From positions 1-55,321 of the forward strand of contig JAPHRK010000045.1 of the NCBI GenBank assembly GCA_026196105.1: DNA of 55,321 nt, in the 5' to 3' direction. Source of the DNA: Rhodospirillales bacterium (GTDB taxonomy: Bacteria > Pseudomonadota > Alphaproteobacteria > Rhodospirillales > JAPHRK01). Within the stretch, counting starts at the first letter, position 1; every line of letters begins with the position of its first letter. The position numbers and the translations under genes are program-made. The notes beneath the pieces are model-generated. The model saw nothing but the letters and a program-made list of their open reading frames with translations. It was not told where the DNA came from and did no database searches. Shown here in pieces: positions 3,709 through 38,860 of this stretch.

Positions 3709-6700
3709 TTACTCTTTTGATAATTCACCCAACAGCATATGGGCACTGTTTGATTTAGGTTTCCATAGGCCTCGTTCCAAGGCTTCATTTAATCGGTCAG
3801 CCATCTCTTGCAAGGCGGCAGGGTTATTTTCTTCCAAGAAAGACCTGACTTCCTCGTCTTCAAGGTAGGCTTCCATGACCAAATCAAAGTGGTGGTCTTT
3901 GACGCAACGGGCTGTTGCGGCGAATGCAAACAGGTAATCTACCGTCGCTGTCATTTCGAAAGCGCCTTTGTAACCGTGCCTCATAACCCCTTGAATCCAC
4001 TTAGGATTGACGACACGTGCACGCACGACACGGGCAATCTCTTCTTCTAAAGTTCTGACTCTTGGGGTCTCAGGTCGAGAGTGATCATTATGATAAACAG
4101 TGGGTTGTTCGCCCGACAGATTGCGAACCGCAGCCGTCATGCCCCCTTCGAATTGATAATAATCATCTGAATCGAGAATATCATGTTCGCGGTTGTCTTG
4201 GTTTTGCACCACGGCTTCAACAGAACTAAGACGACGCTCAAACAGCCCGTGGGCCGCATTTCCTTTGGCTCCAGCGCCGTAAGCATAGCCACCCCAAGCT
4301 ACATAAGCGCGTGCTAAATCCGCATCCGTCTCCCAGCCTTTTTCATCGATCAAAGCTTGCAAGCCTGCGCCATAGGCACCGGGCTTGGAGCCAAAGACCC
4401 GATAGCCGGACCGATTTGCAGCTTCTTCTGGAGACATTCCTTGTTTTTCAAAATCTTGGCGCTCTTCTTTTACCCGTGCTGCTAAGAAATTTAGGTTGTC
4501 GGGCTCATCCAATTCAGCAACGGCGCGGGTGGCAGAATCAAATAAATCGATCAGGCCGGGGAAGGCATCACGAAAGAAACCTGAAATTCGAAGGGTGACA
4601 TCCACGCGGGGACGGTCGAGAAGATCAAGAGGGAGAATTTCAAACCCGGTCACTCGTTTGGATAGGCTATCCCATGTTGGACGAACCCCCATTAAGGCGA
4701 GGCCTTGGGCTATATCGTCCCCACCTGTACGCATGTTGGAGGTTCCCCAGGCGGTCAGGGCCATGGTTCTTGGCCAGGCCCCGTGCTCTTGCATATGGCG
4801 CTCAATCAATAGATTGGCAGATTTCCATCCCAAGGTCCAGGCGGCAGGGGTGGGAACGGCGCGGGTGTCGACAGAATAAAAATTACGCCCCGTAGGGAGC
4901 ACTTCCGGTTTGCCCCGGGTTGGGGCTCCAGAAGGGCCCGGTTCAATAAACCGTCCCTCTAACCCTGTGAGAAGCCCTTTGATTTCTTCTGGGCCACAAG
5001 CTTCAACGGCTGGGCGAAGGGATTGGTTGATGGTGTCAAGAACGGCTGCTGTGCAGACCCAATCAGATCGTATTTCCTCTTCGCCAGAAACCAATCTGAT
5101 AGCAAGCTCTTCCAGGCGCTCAATGGTGTCACCTTCACTGCGCCACAGGCCTTCGCCTGTGAGAACATCAGGTCTTTCGCCCATCCAGGGAGCCGACATA
5201 TCGCAATCAAGAGGGTCAAAATCGAGGTTTAAATCTTTAGCGAGAGCCCGCAAAATCGAAGCATCTCCTCCTTCACCTTTGTTTCGTGGTACCCGTGCCA
5301 ATGCGATAAGGGTGTCGTCCAAAAGCCTTTCCGTTGGGGACTCGCCGAAGATGTGGAGACCATCGCGAATTTGCATTTCTTTTAATTCGCACAAATGGTT
5401 ATCAAGCTTTGCTAAAGCATTATCTTGATTTTCATTTTCTTTAATGCCGCAATCTTCAGCCAAACCTGTGCTGTAGCTCAGCTGTAAAATTTCTTTGCGC
5501 AAAACCTTAAGGCGACGAGGGTCAACGCCAGCGGCTTGATAGTATTCATCAACCAATAACTCCAGGTCCTTTAAGGGTCCGTAGCTTTCAGCTCGGGTTA
5601 AAGGCGGAGTCATATGATCAATAATTACCGCTTGAGCTCGGCGCTTGGCTTGGGTGCCTTCGCCGGGATCATTAACGATAAAAGGATATAGGTGAGGCAA
5701 GGGGCCAAGGATCGCTTCAGGGAAGCATTCTTGCGACAAGGCAAGTGATTTACCCGGTAACCATTCCAAATTCCCATGTTTACCCATGTGAATGACCGTG
5801 TTGGCATTAAAACTTGCTCTTATCCAGGCGTAAAAGGCCAAATAACTATGCGGAGGGACTAAATCAGGGTCGTGATAGGTCGATTCAGGGTCGATGTTGT
5901 ATCCTCGGGCTGGTTGGAGGCCGATAGCGATGTTACCGCAACGAAAGATTGGTAGCAGAAATTTGCCACAGTCCAATTCTCCCGCCCGATAAAACGGGTC
6001 CGTATCGGCAGTGCCCCAACGTTTAGTTACCTGCCCCTGAACCTCTGGAGGGAGCCCAGAAAAAAAGCACTGGTAATCTGCCATCGAAAGGGTTTCGCGA
6101 ACTTCGCGTTGGTCCAAGTGTTTGTAATCATTGGTCGGTCCTTGTTGAATATGTTCAACTAAGGCGTTCCCATTTTCTGGAATTCCTTCCAAATTGTAAC
6201 CTTGGCTTTCGAGGGCCTTGAGAATTTTGATGGTTCCAGCAGGAGTATCGAGCCCCACCCCATTACCCATGCGCCCGTCCCGGTTGGGATAATTGGCTAA
6301 AATCAAAGCAACTTTACGTTCGCTTGCTGGAGCTTGGCGCAGCTTGGCCCAACCTGCGGCTAACTTGGCAACAAAAACAACCCTATCACTGACCGGTTGG
6401 TAGACAACGATGTCGGTTTCGGTCAGGGGGTCGCGTTCTTTAAGGCCTTTGAAGGAAACCGCCCGGCTTAGGATGCGCCCATCTACCTCTGGCAGGGCGA
6501 CATTCATGGCGATGTCACGAGCAGATAAACCATTTGGGTTTTCGCGCCATACTTCTTCGTTACCACCGGAGAAAACCACCTGAAGGATTGGGCAATCAGC
6601 CCCATCGAACGGGGTTTGGCTGCGTTTAGCTCCAGGAGCCGATATTGCAAAGCCTGTGGCATTGAGGATGACTGAGGGTTTTGTTTGTTCGAAAAGCTCC

Positions 6701-7428
6701 GTAACAATGGCTCCGACCACCTGATCTTTGAGGCTTGAGACAAACACGGGTAGAGGGTTAAGCCCTTCGGTTTTAAGGGCCTCAACCATGGCATCAATAA
6801 TTGCTAAATTCCCCGCCTGAACTAAGGCGCGATAAAAGGTAATGGCGACAACGGGTTTTCCGTTTTCCTTAAATTCCGGCCCGTAAACTCCGGCCTTCAT
6901 CAAAGGAGCAGGTTCAACCCAATCTCCGTCACTTCCAATCAGTTCATGGCAATAACCGAGGAAACTTGAAGCGTTTTCCATGCCGCCATGGACCATATAT
7001 TGCCACAGGCGATGGATGGATTCTTGAGGGACGGTAGAAAAGGATGTTAGTTCAGCGTCAGGTTGATCGTCGCCAGGCAGAAAGATCACGGGGATATTTT
7101 TTTCCCGACAAACCGCCGAGACTTGCTCAATGCCATACTGCCAATAGCCGCGTCCCCCAAGCACCCGTGCCACCACAAGCTTCGCTTGCCCAATAACGTC
7201 CTCAACATAAAGGTCGACGGACATGTTATGCCCAAGGTTAAGCAACGACGCCAACCGGACACTCGGTGTCTCTTTGTTTTTCTCTACCGCTTGTTTTTGC
7301 GCAAGGGCAAGGCAAGCAAGCTCACTGTCAGCGGCAGACAGAACAACGATATCGCCAGGAGTTTGGCCTAAATCAATAGCTTCGGAACCGTCTGAGGCAA
7401 GTCCGGGTGTGGCAGCAAGAAGGTGCAT
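3709..7428 (-). CDS. cobN: Aerobic cobaltochelatase subunit CobN
   Basis: Large subunit of the ATP-dependent CobNST cobaltochelatase, which inserts Co2+ into hydrogenobyrinic acid a,c-diamide. It is homologous to the magnesium chelatase subunit ChlH/BchH. At 1239 aa it is full length. Family landmarks include a PNRDGRMGNGVGLDTPAGT segment, HMGKHGNLEWLPGKSLALS (about residues 545-563), the substrate-cleft region LPTGRNFYSVD and the C-terminal WIQGVMRHGYKGAFEM. CobN marks the oxygen-dependent pathway. The partner ATPase subunits (the chelatase CobS and CobT, not the same proteins as the cobS and cobT in this window) are not present here. It lies between cobW (7 bp) and cobO (5 bp) in one transcript. 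Confidence 0.97.
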   Translation of the reverse strand: MHLLAATPGLASDGSEAIDLGQTPGDIVVLSAADSELACLALAQKQAVEKNKETPSVRLASLLNLGHNMSVDLYVEDVIGQAKLVVARVLGGRGYWQYGIEQVSAVCREKNIPVIFLPGDDQPDAELTSFSTVPQESIHRLWQYMVHGGMENASSFLGYCHELIGSDGDWVEPAPLMKAGVYGPEFKENGKPVVAITFYRALVQAGNLAIIDAMVEALKTEGLNPLPVFVSSLKDQVVGAIVTELFEQTKPSVILNATGFAISAPGAKRSQTPFDGADCPILQVVFSGGNEEVWRENPNGLSARDIAMNVALPEVDGRILSRAVSFKGLKERDPLTETDIVVYQPVSDRVVFVAKLAAGWAKLRQAPASERKVALILANYPNRDGRMGNGVGLDTPAGTIKILKALESQGYNLEGIPENGNALVEHIQQGPTNDYKHLDQREVRETLSMADYQCFFSGLPPEVQGQVTKRWGTADTDPFYRAGELDCGKFLLPIFRCGNIAIGLQPARGYNIDPESTYHDPDLVPPHSYLAFYAWIRASFNANTVIHMGKHGNLEWLPGKSLALSQECFPEAILGPLPHLYPFIVNDPGEGTQAKRRAQAVIIDHMTPPLTRAESYGPLKDLELLVDEYYQAAGVDPRRLKVLRKEILQLSYSTGLAEDCGIKENENQDNALAKLDNHLCELKEMQIRDGLHIFGESPTERLLDDTLIALARVPRNKGEGGDASILRALAKDLNLDFDPLDCDMSAPWMGERPDVLTGEGLWRSEGDTIERLEELAIRLVSGEEEIRSDWVCTAAVLDTINQSLRPAVEACGPEEIKGLLTGLEGRFIEPGPSGAPTRGKPEVLPTGRNFYSVDTRAVPTPAAWTLGWKSANLLIERHMQEHGAWPRTMALTAWGTSNMRTGGDDIAQGLALMGVRPTWDSLSKRVTGFEILPLDLLDRPRVDVTLRISGFFRDAFPGLIDLFDSATRAVAELDEPDNLNFLAARVKEERQDFEKQGMSPEEAANRSGYRVFGSKPGAYGAGLQALIDEKGWETDADLARAYVAWGGYAYGAGAKGNAAHGLFERRLSSVEAVVQNQDNREHDILDSDDYYQFEGGMTAAVRNLSGEQPTVYHNDHSRPETPRVRTLEEEIARVVRARVVNPKWIQGVMRHGYKGAFEMTATVDYLFAFAATARCVKDHHFDLVMEAYLEDEEVRSFLEENNPAALQEMADRLNEALERGLWKPKSNSAHMLLGELSKE

Positions 7429-7435
7429 CTTATGA

Positions 7436-8476
7436 TTAGTTTGGCAAGATCAAGGCTTGGACAGCTTCACGGTCAAGGCCATGTTGTCCAATAATCACCA
7501 AGCGAGATTGACGAGTTTCATCCTCACGCCATGGACGGTCATAGTAGCGCTCAAAACGGCTGCCTACGCCTTGAAACACATGGCGCATTTCTTTGCCGGG
7601 GACATTGATAAAGCCTTTGATGCGCAGGATATCATGAACCTTAACAGCTTCAATCAAACGAGTCTCCAAGACGGCTGGGTCTGCAACATCTCCGATGCTG
7701 ACCGTGAAGGTATCGAAGTCATCGTGCTCATGGTCATCAGACCCATCATGGTGGGAAGGGCGTGCTTCTAGGTCGTCTTCAGCCGCAGCTTCCAATCCAA
7801 GCAAAACGCTGACATCCACTTTGCCATAGCTTGAGGGTAACATCTTCACTCCGTCGCGAAGTTGACTTGTCAGTTCGTCTTTAACTTGAGACACGCCTGC
7901 TTCGTCCATGAGGTCGGATTTATTGAGCAAGATTAAATCAGCGCAATTGAGTTGGTCGGTGAAAACTTCTTCTAAGGGATTGTCGTGGTCAATGGCTTCA
8001 TCAGCTTCCCGTTGAGCCTGGACAGCCTCTTCATCATCAGCAAAACGACCAGCAGCAACTGCGTCAGCATCAATCACCGCAACCACACCATCAACAGTGA
8101 TTTTGGAGCGGACTTCAGGCCAGTTGAAGGCTTTGACCAAGGGTTTGGGCAAAGCAAGACCTGAAGTCTCAATAAGGATATGTTCGGGGGGTTCTGGGCG
8201 ATCTAACAAAGCTTCGATTGTGGGGACAAATTCGTCGGCGACGGTGCAGCAAATGCAGCCGTTGGAGAGCTCAATAATATCCCCGGCTCGTTCCCCTTCC
8301 AGGTCACAATCTTTAATGCCACAGCCTTTAAGGATGTCGCTATCCATCCCAAGGTCACCAAATTCATTGATGATCAGAGCAATGCGACGGCCATTGGCGG
8401 ATTCTAAAATATGGCGAACTAGGGTTGTTTTTCCGGCTCCTAAAAAGCCAGTAATCACTGTTGCGGGGATTTTCAT
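7436..8476 (-). CDS. cobW: CobW-family metal GTPase
   Basis: G3E-family P-loop GTPase, thought to be the metallochaperone that delivers cobalt to the CobNST chelatase; its place directly before cobN agrees. The Walker A motif is GFLGAGKTT (10-18). The metal-binding CxCC motif is GCICCTV (C74, C76, C77). The G4 motif NKSD is at 185-188, and a CobW C-terminal domain follows. An acidic, His-containing linker near residues 241-253 (H242, H243, H249, H251 among Asp/Glu) may be a second metal site. The start codon overlaps the cobU stop as ATGA. At 346 aa it is typical of CobW rather than of the shorter zinc ZigA/COG0523 types, though these are hard to tell apart by sequence alone. Confidence 0.92.
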   Translation of the reverse strand: MKIPATVITGFLGAGKTTLVRHILESANGRRIALIINEFGDLGMDSDILKGCGIKDCDLEGERAGDIIELSNGCICCTVADEFVPTIEALLDRPEPPEHILIETSGLALPKPLVKAFNWPEVRSKITVDGVVAVIDADAVAAGRFADDEEAVQAQREADEAIDHDNPLEEVFTDQLNCADLILLNKSDLMDEAGVSQVKDELTSQLRDGVKMLPSSYGKVDVSVLLGLEAAAEDDLEARPSHHDGSDDHEHDDFDTFTVSIGDVADPAVLETRLIEAVKVHDILRIKGFINVPGKEMRHVFQGVGSRFERYYDRPWREDETRQSRLVIIGQHGLDREAVQALILPN

Positions 8477-37268: not shown

Positions 37269-38042
37269 TTACAAACAAGTCGACATCCCACCATCCACCG
37301 GAATGATTGTCCCCGTGACATAATCACTTGCCGCTGACCCCAAATACAGTGCCACCGCTGCCATGTCTTCTGGTTTGCCGATGCGTCCGGCGGGGACGCC
37401 TGCGATGATTTCGTCACCTTGGGTTTTGAGGGTTTCGGCCATCATGTGGCTTTGGAAGGGGCCAGGGGCGATGGCGTTTACGTTGATGTGATTGGGGGCG
37501 AGGTTTTTAGCCAGGGTTTTGGTTAGGTGGTGGACGGCGGCTTTACTGGCGGCGTAGGAGTAGACCTCCAGGTGTGGGGTGGTCATGCCATTGATGGAAC
37601 CTGTGGAGATGACTTTAGCCGGAGCTCCTGCTTTGCCCGCTTTTTTAAGCAAGGGCAGCATTTTTTGGGTGAGGAAGAAGACTGCTTTTATATTCACGTC
37701 CATCACCTTGTCCCAACCAGCCTCGGGGAAATCTTCAAAAGGGGCGGCCCAATTTGCTCCTGCATTGTTAACTAGGATGTCCAATTTGTCTTCAAGTTTG
37801 GCAAACTCACGAGCAACCCGTTCAATCTCGTCCACTTGTGACATGTCAGCTGGCAGGGTGCGGCAATCGTAGCCTTGCTTGTTAAATTCGTCGGCAACCT
37901 GCTGGCAAACCTCGGCTTTGCGCGAGGAAATATAAACTCTAGCGCCGTTTTCCAGGTACCCGCGCGCGATCATGTGACCAATGCCGCTGGAGCCGCCAGT
38001 GACGAATGCAACTTTGCCTTTTACCGAGAATAAATCTTTCAT
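37269..38042 (-). CDS. SDR family oxidoreductase
   Basis: Classical short-chain dehydrogenase/reductase with cofactor motif TGGSSGIG (about residues 14-21), NNAG, catalytic Ser in STGSINGM and the YSYAASKAA Tyr-Lys pair. It ends in VTGTIIPVDGGMS, all standard. The start is ATG at 38042 with AGGGGA just upstream, giving 257 aa. A longer open frame upstream runs into a repeat element and is not coding. The substrate cannot be told; relatives act on gluconate-like or keto substrates. The 5' side of the gene abuts a 264-bp inverted-repeat element, so its promoter may have been moved or replaced. Confidence 0.93.
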   Translation of the reverse strand: MKDLFSVKGKVAFVTGGSSGIGHMIARGYLENGARVYISSRKAEVCQQVADEFNKQGYDCRTLPADMSQVDEIERVAREFAKLEDKLDILVNNAGANWAAPFEDFPEAGWDKVMDVNIKAVFFLTQKMLPLLKKAGKAGAPAKVISTGSINGMTTPHLEVYSYAASKAAVHHLTKTLAKNLAPNHINVNAIAPGPFQSHMMAETLKTQGDEIIAGVPAGRIGKPEDMAAVALYLGSAASDYVTGTIIPVDGGMSTCL

Positions 38043-38052
38043 TTTGTCCCCT

Positions 38053-38316
38053 AGAGTAGTTTGTGAATAGGTGTATCCATTTGATGGAGGCGAGTGATCG
38101 TTTTGGGTAGGAGCGGTGTGCCGAGCGATGTGGTTCATCGTTCAAGCATCGCGACACCCTCCAAAACGTTCAGTTGCCCCACCGAAGGCCGGGTTCTTTT
38201 AAATTGTGGCTGCGTTACGCCGTTTGAACGATGCGCCGCATCGCTCTTCACAACTTGCCTAACCACAATTTAAAATAATCCCGGTCAAATGGGTACACCT
38301 ATTCACAAACTACTCT
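38053..38316. mobile_element. 264-bp element with 32-bp terminal inverted repeats and two internal hairpins (MITE-like)
   Basis: The ends are 38053-38084 and 38285-38316, inverted copies identical at 31 of 32 positions (beginning AGAGTAGTTTGTGAATAGG). Inside are two nested stem-loops: 38099-38168 (CGTTTTGG/CCAAAACG, then GGTGT/ACACC and GCGATG/CATCGC) and 38189-38284 (CCGGG...TTTTAAATTGTGG against its complement, about 20 bp). In addition 38123-38143 and 38226-38246 are inverted copies at 18 of 21 positions. There is no open frame of note, so it cannot move itself. No target duplication is obvious. The left end lies directly beside the ribosome binding site of the SDR gene. It could be a non-autonomous transposon derivative or a structured regulatory element. 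Confidence 0.7.
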
Positions 38317-38425
38317 TGCCTGTGGATTGTTTAAACCTTGATTTAATCATAGAAACCCTTTGTATTGTTGGTCAACTGATACCAAGCCTGCTTGGTACTT
38401 AACTTGCTCCTATCGAAAGTTTGCG

Positions 38426-38860
38426 ATGTCTCATTCCACTCCCGTTGATGCGCTCGTCAATGTGTCCTGCAAGGTGATTATTACTCTTGATAGCAAGGTT
38501 CTGTTGCTTAAGAAAAAGGGTAAATGGTGGGACTTGCCAGGGGGTAAGCTCGACGAGGGCGAAGAGTTGGAGCAGACCGCCGTGCGTGAAGTCAAAGAAG
38601 AAACAGGTTTGAAAGTGACAGTCGGTGATATCTTAAGCTGTCGACTCCAAAAACGAGATGATGCCAACCATCGCGTTTTTATCTTCTACCACAGTAAGCT
38701 CAAAGAAAAGCCAGCCAAAATTCGCCTGAGTGATGAGCATGTTGAATGGGGCTTTTTCTCGGCGAAAGACATGAAAGATATGTACCTCAACGATATTCAG
38801 CGCATCGGGCTAAAAGAGTCGATTAAGAAAATTGAAGGCTGGAAGAAAAATGGCAACTAA
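38426..38860 (+). CDS. Nudix hydrolase
   Basis: Nudix-fold pyrophosphohydrolase. The full Nudix box GxxxxxExxxxxxxREUxEExGU is present, beginning GGKLDEGEEL and ending REVKEETGL. A Mg-dependent nucleoside diphosphate-linked substrate is expected; which one is not known. I use the ATG at 38426 (144 aa) because the longer frame starts with TTG at 38360 and adds a doubtful Trp/Tyr-rich lead. The gene overlaps the next (CYTH) by 11 nt, so both are cotranslated. The Nudix-CYTH pair hydrolyses small phosphates in each case. Confidence 0.92.
   Translation: MSHSTPVDALVNVSCKVIITLDSKVLLLKKKGKWWDLPGGKLDEGEELEQTAVREVKEETGLKVTVGDILSCRLQKRDDANHRVFIFYHSKLKEKPAKIRLSDEHVEWGFFSAKDMKDMYLNDIQRIGLKESIKKIEGWKKNGN

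Follow-up and report, generated by a model that had tools for sequence, protein, structure and literature searches.

The 264-bp element at positions 38053-38316 of the window, by which we mean the whole 55,321-nucleotide stretch of Rhodospirillales DNA that was analysed, is very probably an IS630 / Tc1-mariner-type MITE, a non-autonomous transposon. The initial annotation had left the choice between a MITE and a structured regulatory element. We favor the former because copies of the element are dispersed, empty sites in another genus (g36) mostly carry TA at the junction, and the arms match the ends of IS630 elements; the regulatory half of the proposal found no backing in a consensus scan or in the placement of the element relative to genes. 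MITEs are usually thought of as insertion-sequence leftovers. In distant relatives, this one still has its length and an elaborate fold even though the pairs in its stems have been replaced one after another, and closely similar core halves come with different types of arm; it can therefore be used to test whether a MITE fold persists through selection or through errors of replication.

Table 1. Parts of the element and its neighbouring genes, in window coordinates
Feature	Positions	Strand	Basis
Whole MITE, 264 bp	38053-38316	.	Five genome copies; 45 full-length members found
Left TA flank (target duplication: flanking T plus the A of AGAG)	38052-38053	.	T left of AGAG in 31/41 scored members; TA at 9/12 empty junctions in another genus
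Right target flank, TT in the window copy, not TA	38316-38317	.	Sequence; A there in 36/41 scored members
Left arm: IS630-type terminal repeat plus CCATTTGA	38053-38084	+	31/32 against right arm; IS630 end profile match
Right arm, inverted copy of the left arm	38285-38316	-	31/32 arm pairing; IS630 end profile match
Hairpin 1 of the core	38085-38181	.	Fold; both-sided changes in 21/26 consensus pairs (helices 2-4)
Short unpaired linker between hairpins, within conserved block CCCCACCGAAGGCCGGG	38182-38187	.	Alignment and fold
Second core hairpin, related to hairpin 1 in inverted orientation	38188-38285	.	Fold; both-sided changes in 30/31 consensus pairs (helices 5-8)
SDR gene, outside the element; start codon 10 bases from the element	37269-38042	-	PF13561, 5.3e-53
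NUDIX gene, divergent, outside the element	38426-38860	+	PF00293, 2.8e-20

The near-perfect 32-bp inverted ends and the structured interior that had been read from the sequence both hold up (Table 1). The RNA fold of the element reaches -136.3 kcal/mol, compared to -73.0 (sd 4.9) in 200 dinucleotide shuffles (z -12.8), none of which folded as well. In the minimum-energy fold, the element is T-shaped, with two hairpins standing on an outer stem that closes at 38083/38286. One hairpin had been said to end exactly where the right terminal repeat begins, and this is nearly so: the last base of hairpin 2 is the first of the right 32-base arm. The two halves do resemble each other in inverted orientation (45 nt at 76%), and the whole element matches its own reverse complement at 66%. 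The statement that the element encodes nothing is true in substance, as no open reading frame of 80 or more amino acids lies inside the 264 bp. The SDR reading frame stays open into the element until a second candidate ATG at 38138, but a start at the 38042 ATG, which AGGGG closely precedes, is the simpler reading. No Rfam family matched at positions 37900-38500, up to an E value of 1.

The initial annotation held that several copies at different sites would support a mobile element, and that a single copy at the same locus in all relatives would argue against one. We found five copies in the genome, on five contigs and at unrelated loci. Three were matched over the full 264 bp and two over the 216-bp core only, the latter carrying arms of their own as read from the sequence. 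Genes beside these copies include the SDR and NUDIX genes of the window, a phosphoglucomutase-type (“glmM-like”) gene, and genes for ribosomal protein S4 and methionine sulfoxide reductase; the ORF beside one further copy we take to be ilvD. Within each copy, the arms pair at 23, 24, 24, 20, and 24 of 24 positions, but between copies they agree at only 10-21 of 24. The cores are 87-94% identical between copies, compared to 39-87% for the left arms and 48-88% for the right arms.

Orthologous sites with and without the element document its movement in relatives. This comparison was made among three genomes (G039, G055, and G080) that all belong to genus g36, which is not the genus of the window's genome. 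Fifteen distinct sites in G039 and G055, 10 with long and 5 with short forms, were compared with each other and with G080, which has flank matches only and no element. One further locus, L103, was excluded because its flank is another dispersed repeat, and L100 was counted with L098, as one flank is common to both, though the other is different. At 12 of the 15 sites both flanks align, the others (L099, L130, and L132) aligning on one flank only. Nine of these 12 have TA at the empty junction (long forms L093, L095, L096, L098, and L131; short forms L104, L106, L107, and L110), and six of the nine junctions read CTAG. Four of the nine (L095, L131, L107, and L110) retain TA at both edges of the insert, and in the other five one edge has changed. 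The three two-sided sites that lack TA are L012, with TG in both relatives, L097, with GA, and L105, with neither. In genus g36, then, the relatives inserted mostly at TA, with CTAG preferred and the TA duplicated. IS630 prefers CTAG. Among 41 members with scorable flanks, 28 carry both the T on the left and the A on the right, each of which is more frequent by itself (Table 1). For the five copies in the window's own genome, mobility is inferred from that of the relatives. The left flank of L103 (query 1501-1630) has many matches in each of the three g36 genomes.

The arms point to the kind of transposase involved. Of 248 genomes from the order, 104 have IS630-type (DDE_3) transposase genes, and 17 of 32 such loci gave a TA-flanked inverted repeat; by the criteria used, the other 15 gave no end pair. 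In 16 of the 17, there is a repeat starting GAGC or GAGT, and these 16 elements span about 1.05-1.08 kb, although at L125 and L220 the GAG end pair was only second-ranked. At L209, the end pair found does not start with GAG. The end consensus is GAGCGTTTCCCGATTAATCTGAATCA for the IS630 elements and GAGCAnTTTCCGACCAATTGGAACCA for the MITE arms. When scored against a profile of the 32 ends of the 16 IS630 elements, which come from related genomes, 66 distinct MITE arms have a mean score of 14.1 (4 of 90 arms that do not start with GAG near the end were excluded). Shuffled arms with the first four bases kept have a mean of -10.9, and none of 1000 shuffled sets scored as high as the MITE arms. The two consensus sequences differ at several inner positions, and in genome G007 a MITE arm (L023) and the end of a resident IS630 element (L122) agree at 14 of 18 positions by eye. 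What the arms match is a family of IS630 ends, not a single transposase. One IS630 copy is directly adjacent to a MITE (L125/L016) and has a second MITE-like end on its other side.

A separate feature of the IS630 ends concerns GANTC, which is the CcrM methylation motif. It occurs at positions 21-25 of exactly one end in 15 of 16 IS630 elements (L212, L215-L220, L222, L224, L227, L229, L230, L122, L125, and L126), and L214 is the exception. A second GANTC lies within positions 26-45 of the same end. By the strand of the DDE_3 gene, the end bearing GANTC is upstream of the transposase in 15 of 15. Among MITEs, 19 of 43 have GANTC at those positions in one arm only and none of the 43 in both. 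The one-end GANTC of the IS630 elements may be a methylation control, a subject on which our literature search found no title among those listed.

These ends and the TA target suggest a mechanism in which an IS630-family transposase acting in trans would bind the arms, cut the element out at its ends, and paste it into a TA. The arms would stay symmetrical in part because one transposase has to work on both, and in part through template switching from one inverted arm to the other during replication. No DDE_3 gene that could serve as the partner was found in the window's genome, or in genomes G055 and G040, which carry many element copies or pieces; all three are draft assemblies, where repeats can drop out. 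With no candidate transposase turning up in the window's genome, its five copies are probably relics.

The initial annotation also noted that the left end of the element lies directly against the Shine-Dalgarno sequence of the SDR gene, and indeed AGGGG touches the element end. With the start codon this close, a putative local effect on the SDR gene is possible. However, the suggestion that the element supplies or silences the promoter of this gene is unsupported. A consensus scan of the element region returned two promoter-like matches at 10/12, one of them inside the element (mean 0.6 in shuffles), and no terminator. Around 39 members, crude ORF calls place the element 18 times between co-directional, 12 times between divergent, and 9 times between convergent neighbors, and background ORF pairs in the same loci, called equally crudely, number 41, 11, and 11. 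With orientations this mixed, the element keeps to no set position relative to genes. It is therefore very improbable that the element is an immobile regulatory structure of the SDR gene, for which its position is the argument: copies lie beside unrelated genes, relatives have empty sites, and placement varies. As a full account of the element, local regulation of the SDR gene is already contradicted.

The fold of this MITE is kept through paired changes. We aligned 43 members, leaving out L020 and L079 for their odd length. The alignment has 82 consensus pairs, of which 73 have changes on both sides (43.6 in shuffles), and 93.3% of cells are paired compared to 76.2% in shuffles; on each of five measures, none of 500 shuffles did as well, although a caveat is that the structure was derived from the same sequences and that these are related, so the paired changes are not independent events. 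When the partners are slid by 1-3 columns, pairing falls to 36-41%. Folded as RNA, the top strand is the more stable of the two in 31 of 43 members but in only one of the five copies of the window's genome, and hence no strand is clearly favored. Over all helices, G.T pairs outnumber A.C pairs by 198 to 65, a count biased by prediction of the structure with G-U pairs allowed. The two arms of a MITE are more alike than the two ends of an IS630 element (mean identity 23.6/26, n = 41, versus 18.7/26, n = 16; p = 1.5e-8), also when 21 representatives are used (p = 5.6e-5, with two misregistered rows included).

These data can be read in two ways. Pairing may be kept by mutation only, with template switching during replication rewriting each inverted arm from the other, so that selection on the fold is unneeded. 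We regard this as quite possible, if somewhat short of probable: the arms within our five copies pair better than arms from different copies agree, and template switching has been described as homogenizing the arms of inverted repeats (PMC8604942 and, for E. coli, PMC7202029). Yet covariation extends beyond the arms to the hairpin stems, and a purely mutational process would not obviously hold 43 of 45 full-length members to 261-270 bp. The same constant length, the both-sided changes in most consensus pairs, and the close similarity of MITE ends relative to IS630 ends would fit a core that is a selected structured RNA or single-stranded DNA, an element that spread as an IS630 MITE but whose double hairpin has a job of its own, for example folding on the lagging strand so that the ends come close to each other, or protecting or insulating neighboring transcripts. 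This reading we consider doubtful, given that neither a consistent strand nor a fixed placement relative to genes is seen, that the covariation comes from related sequences which also supplied the structure, and that template switching alone can keep arms alike (PMC8604942).

The IS630 MITE also appears to have exchanged parts. In L060, a member from the metagenome-assembled genome (MAG) B40T1L10, the second half of the core is 96-99% like that of ten copies with A-type arms, whereas its own arms are only 50-55% like theirs. The arms of L060 are instead 93-100% like those of two B-type copies, but its second core half is only 82% like theirs. The combination seen in L060 recurs in L048, a member from another MAG, with arms at 96-97% and the second half at 99%. 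Similar core halves combined with different arm types point to exchange by recombination. One might go further and suppose that the T-shaped double hairpin is a selected working part that can be exchanged between transposase-specific arms, one core being carried by successive IS630 lineages; this is a speculative extension that we think rather unlikely.

Short forms of the element give a second view of its history. At one orthologous site, three states are found: a 265-bp long form in G039, a 47-bp palindrome of arms in G055, and an empty site in G080. The 47-bp form looks like the product of a deletion of the long form between two TCAAT repeats. Side by side, the three states in these related genomes record an insertion and, on the simplest reading, a subsequent collapse of the long form to the 47-bp palindrome, although the reverse order, with the 47-bp form preceding the long form, may also apply. 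Slippage between short direct repeats that the fold places side by side could have caused the collapse. Short palindromes are present in G039 and G055. We also considered, and rejected, a pre-existing palindrome family that received the core. The pattern AGAGCA-gap-TGCTCT occurs in the window's own genome at 13 places (0 for the reversed-pattern control), none of them by eye a 46-48-bp palindrome with long paired arms; the pattern would miss arms starting AGAGT.

Broken copies occur as well. Solo left ends of about 54-56 bases are found in L108 (1799-1854 and 2118-2170), L117 (1984-2037), and L118 (1963-2016), with nearly the same breakpoint in G039 and G055; one of the L108 solo ends and that of L117 are at orthologous loci. 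A junction between the left ~60 bases of a MITE and one particular ~80-base sequence is shared by two genomes (L119, 1937-3832; L113, 1921-2060), and in L119 it is followed by a gene for a large serine recombinase (PF00239, PF07508). The MITE hairpin may be an attachment site; the other half of an L119-type junction was absent from the 19 kb examined (L143). The TA sites point to IS630, and we therefore set the recombinase aside as the mover of the element.

Several known systems resemble parts of this IS630 MITE. There are precedents for a MITE with IS630-like ends and a TA target in RUP, the repeat unit of pneumococcus, with IS630-Spn1 (PMC2229807), and for a duplicated TA target together with 24-bp terminal repeats in ISY100 of the IS630 family (PMC2170065). 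RUP is 107 bp long (PMC2229807), compared to 264 bp and two core hairpins here, with other ends and in Alphaproteobacteria; IS630 elements such as ISY100 are autonomous and about 1 kb long with a transposase gene, which the MITE lacks. ERIC / IRU and Correia / NEMIS are, according to PMC2229807, likewise non-coding, TA-ended, dispersed repeats that form stem-loops, but Correia is smaller (about 107 and 155 bp; PMC2229807), as is RU-1 (127 bp; PMC2759123). Apart from CIR, bacterial repeats are portrayed in PMC2229807 as a single stem-loop that runs from end to end and has no arms. CIR, from Caulobacter and Brucella, is an alphaproteobacterial intergenic repeat modeled as two long arms and a linker, but PMC2229807 lists it as lacking terminal inverted repeats and as having GANTC at a hairpin tip, a comparison made by description only. 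Our element has an outer stem, and in members with GANTC the motif is mostly near the ends; the window copy (L001) has the stem and no GANTC, which sets it apart from CIR. No earlier description of such an element was found in the literature searched, whose coverage leaves out most subscription journals.

The element also has relatives elsewhere in the Alphaproteobacteria. Matches, many of them partial, were found in 17 of 100 genomes searched, a draw in which the window's genome is the sole member of its family, and in at least 33 of 385 genomes of the class, with at most two candidates scored per genome; both counts include the window's own genome. The loci gathered contain 45 distinct full-length members, all of 261-282 bp except one of 235 bp. 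With two members as queries, no element was found in a plasmid collection. An exact-pattern scan of public genomes returned 41 stretches, 19 of them in the MAG B40T1L10 alone, and nearly all come from alphaproteobacterial, rhodospirillal, or unspecified proteobacterial MAGs. Forty of the 41 also match the element profile, the only one that does not being L052 (Chthoniobacter). L088, filed under Zixiibacteriota, does match, and its name may reflect a binning error. At L064, two MITEs in opposite orientation (6450-6713 and 7405-7668) flank an ORF that resembles an ABC-transporter ATPase by eye.
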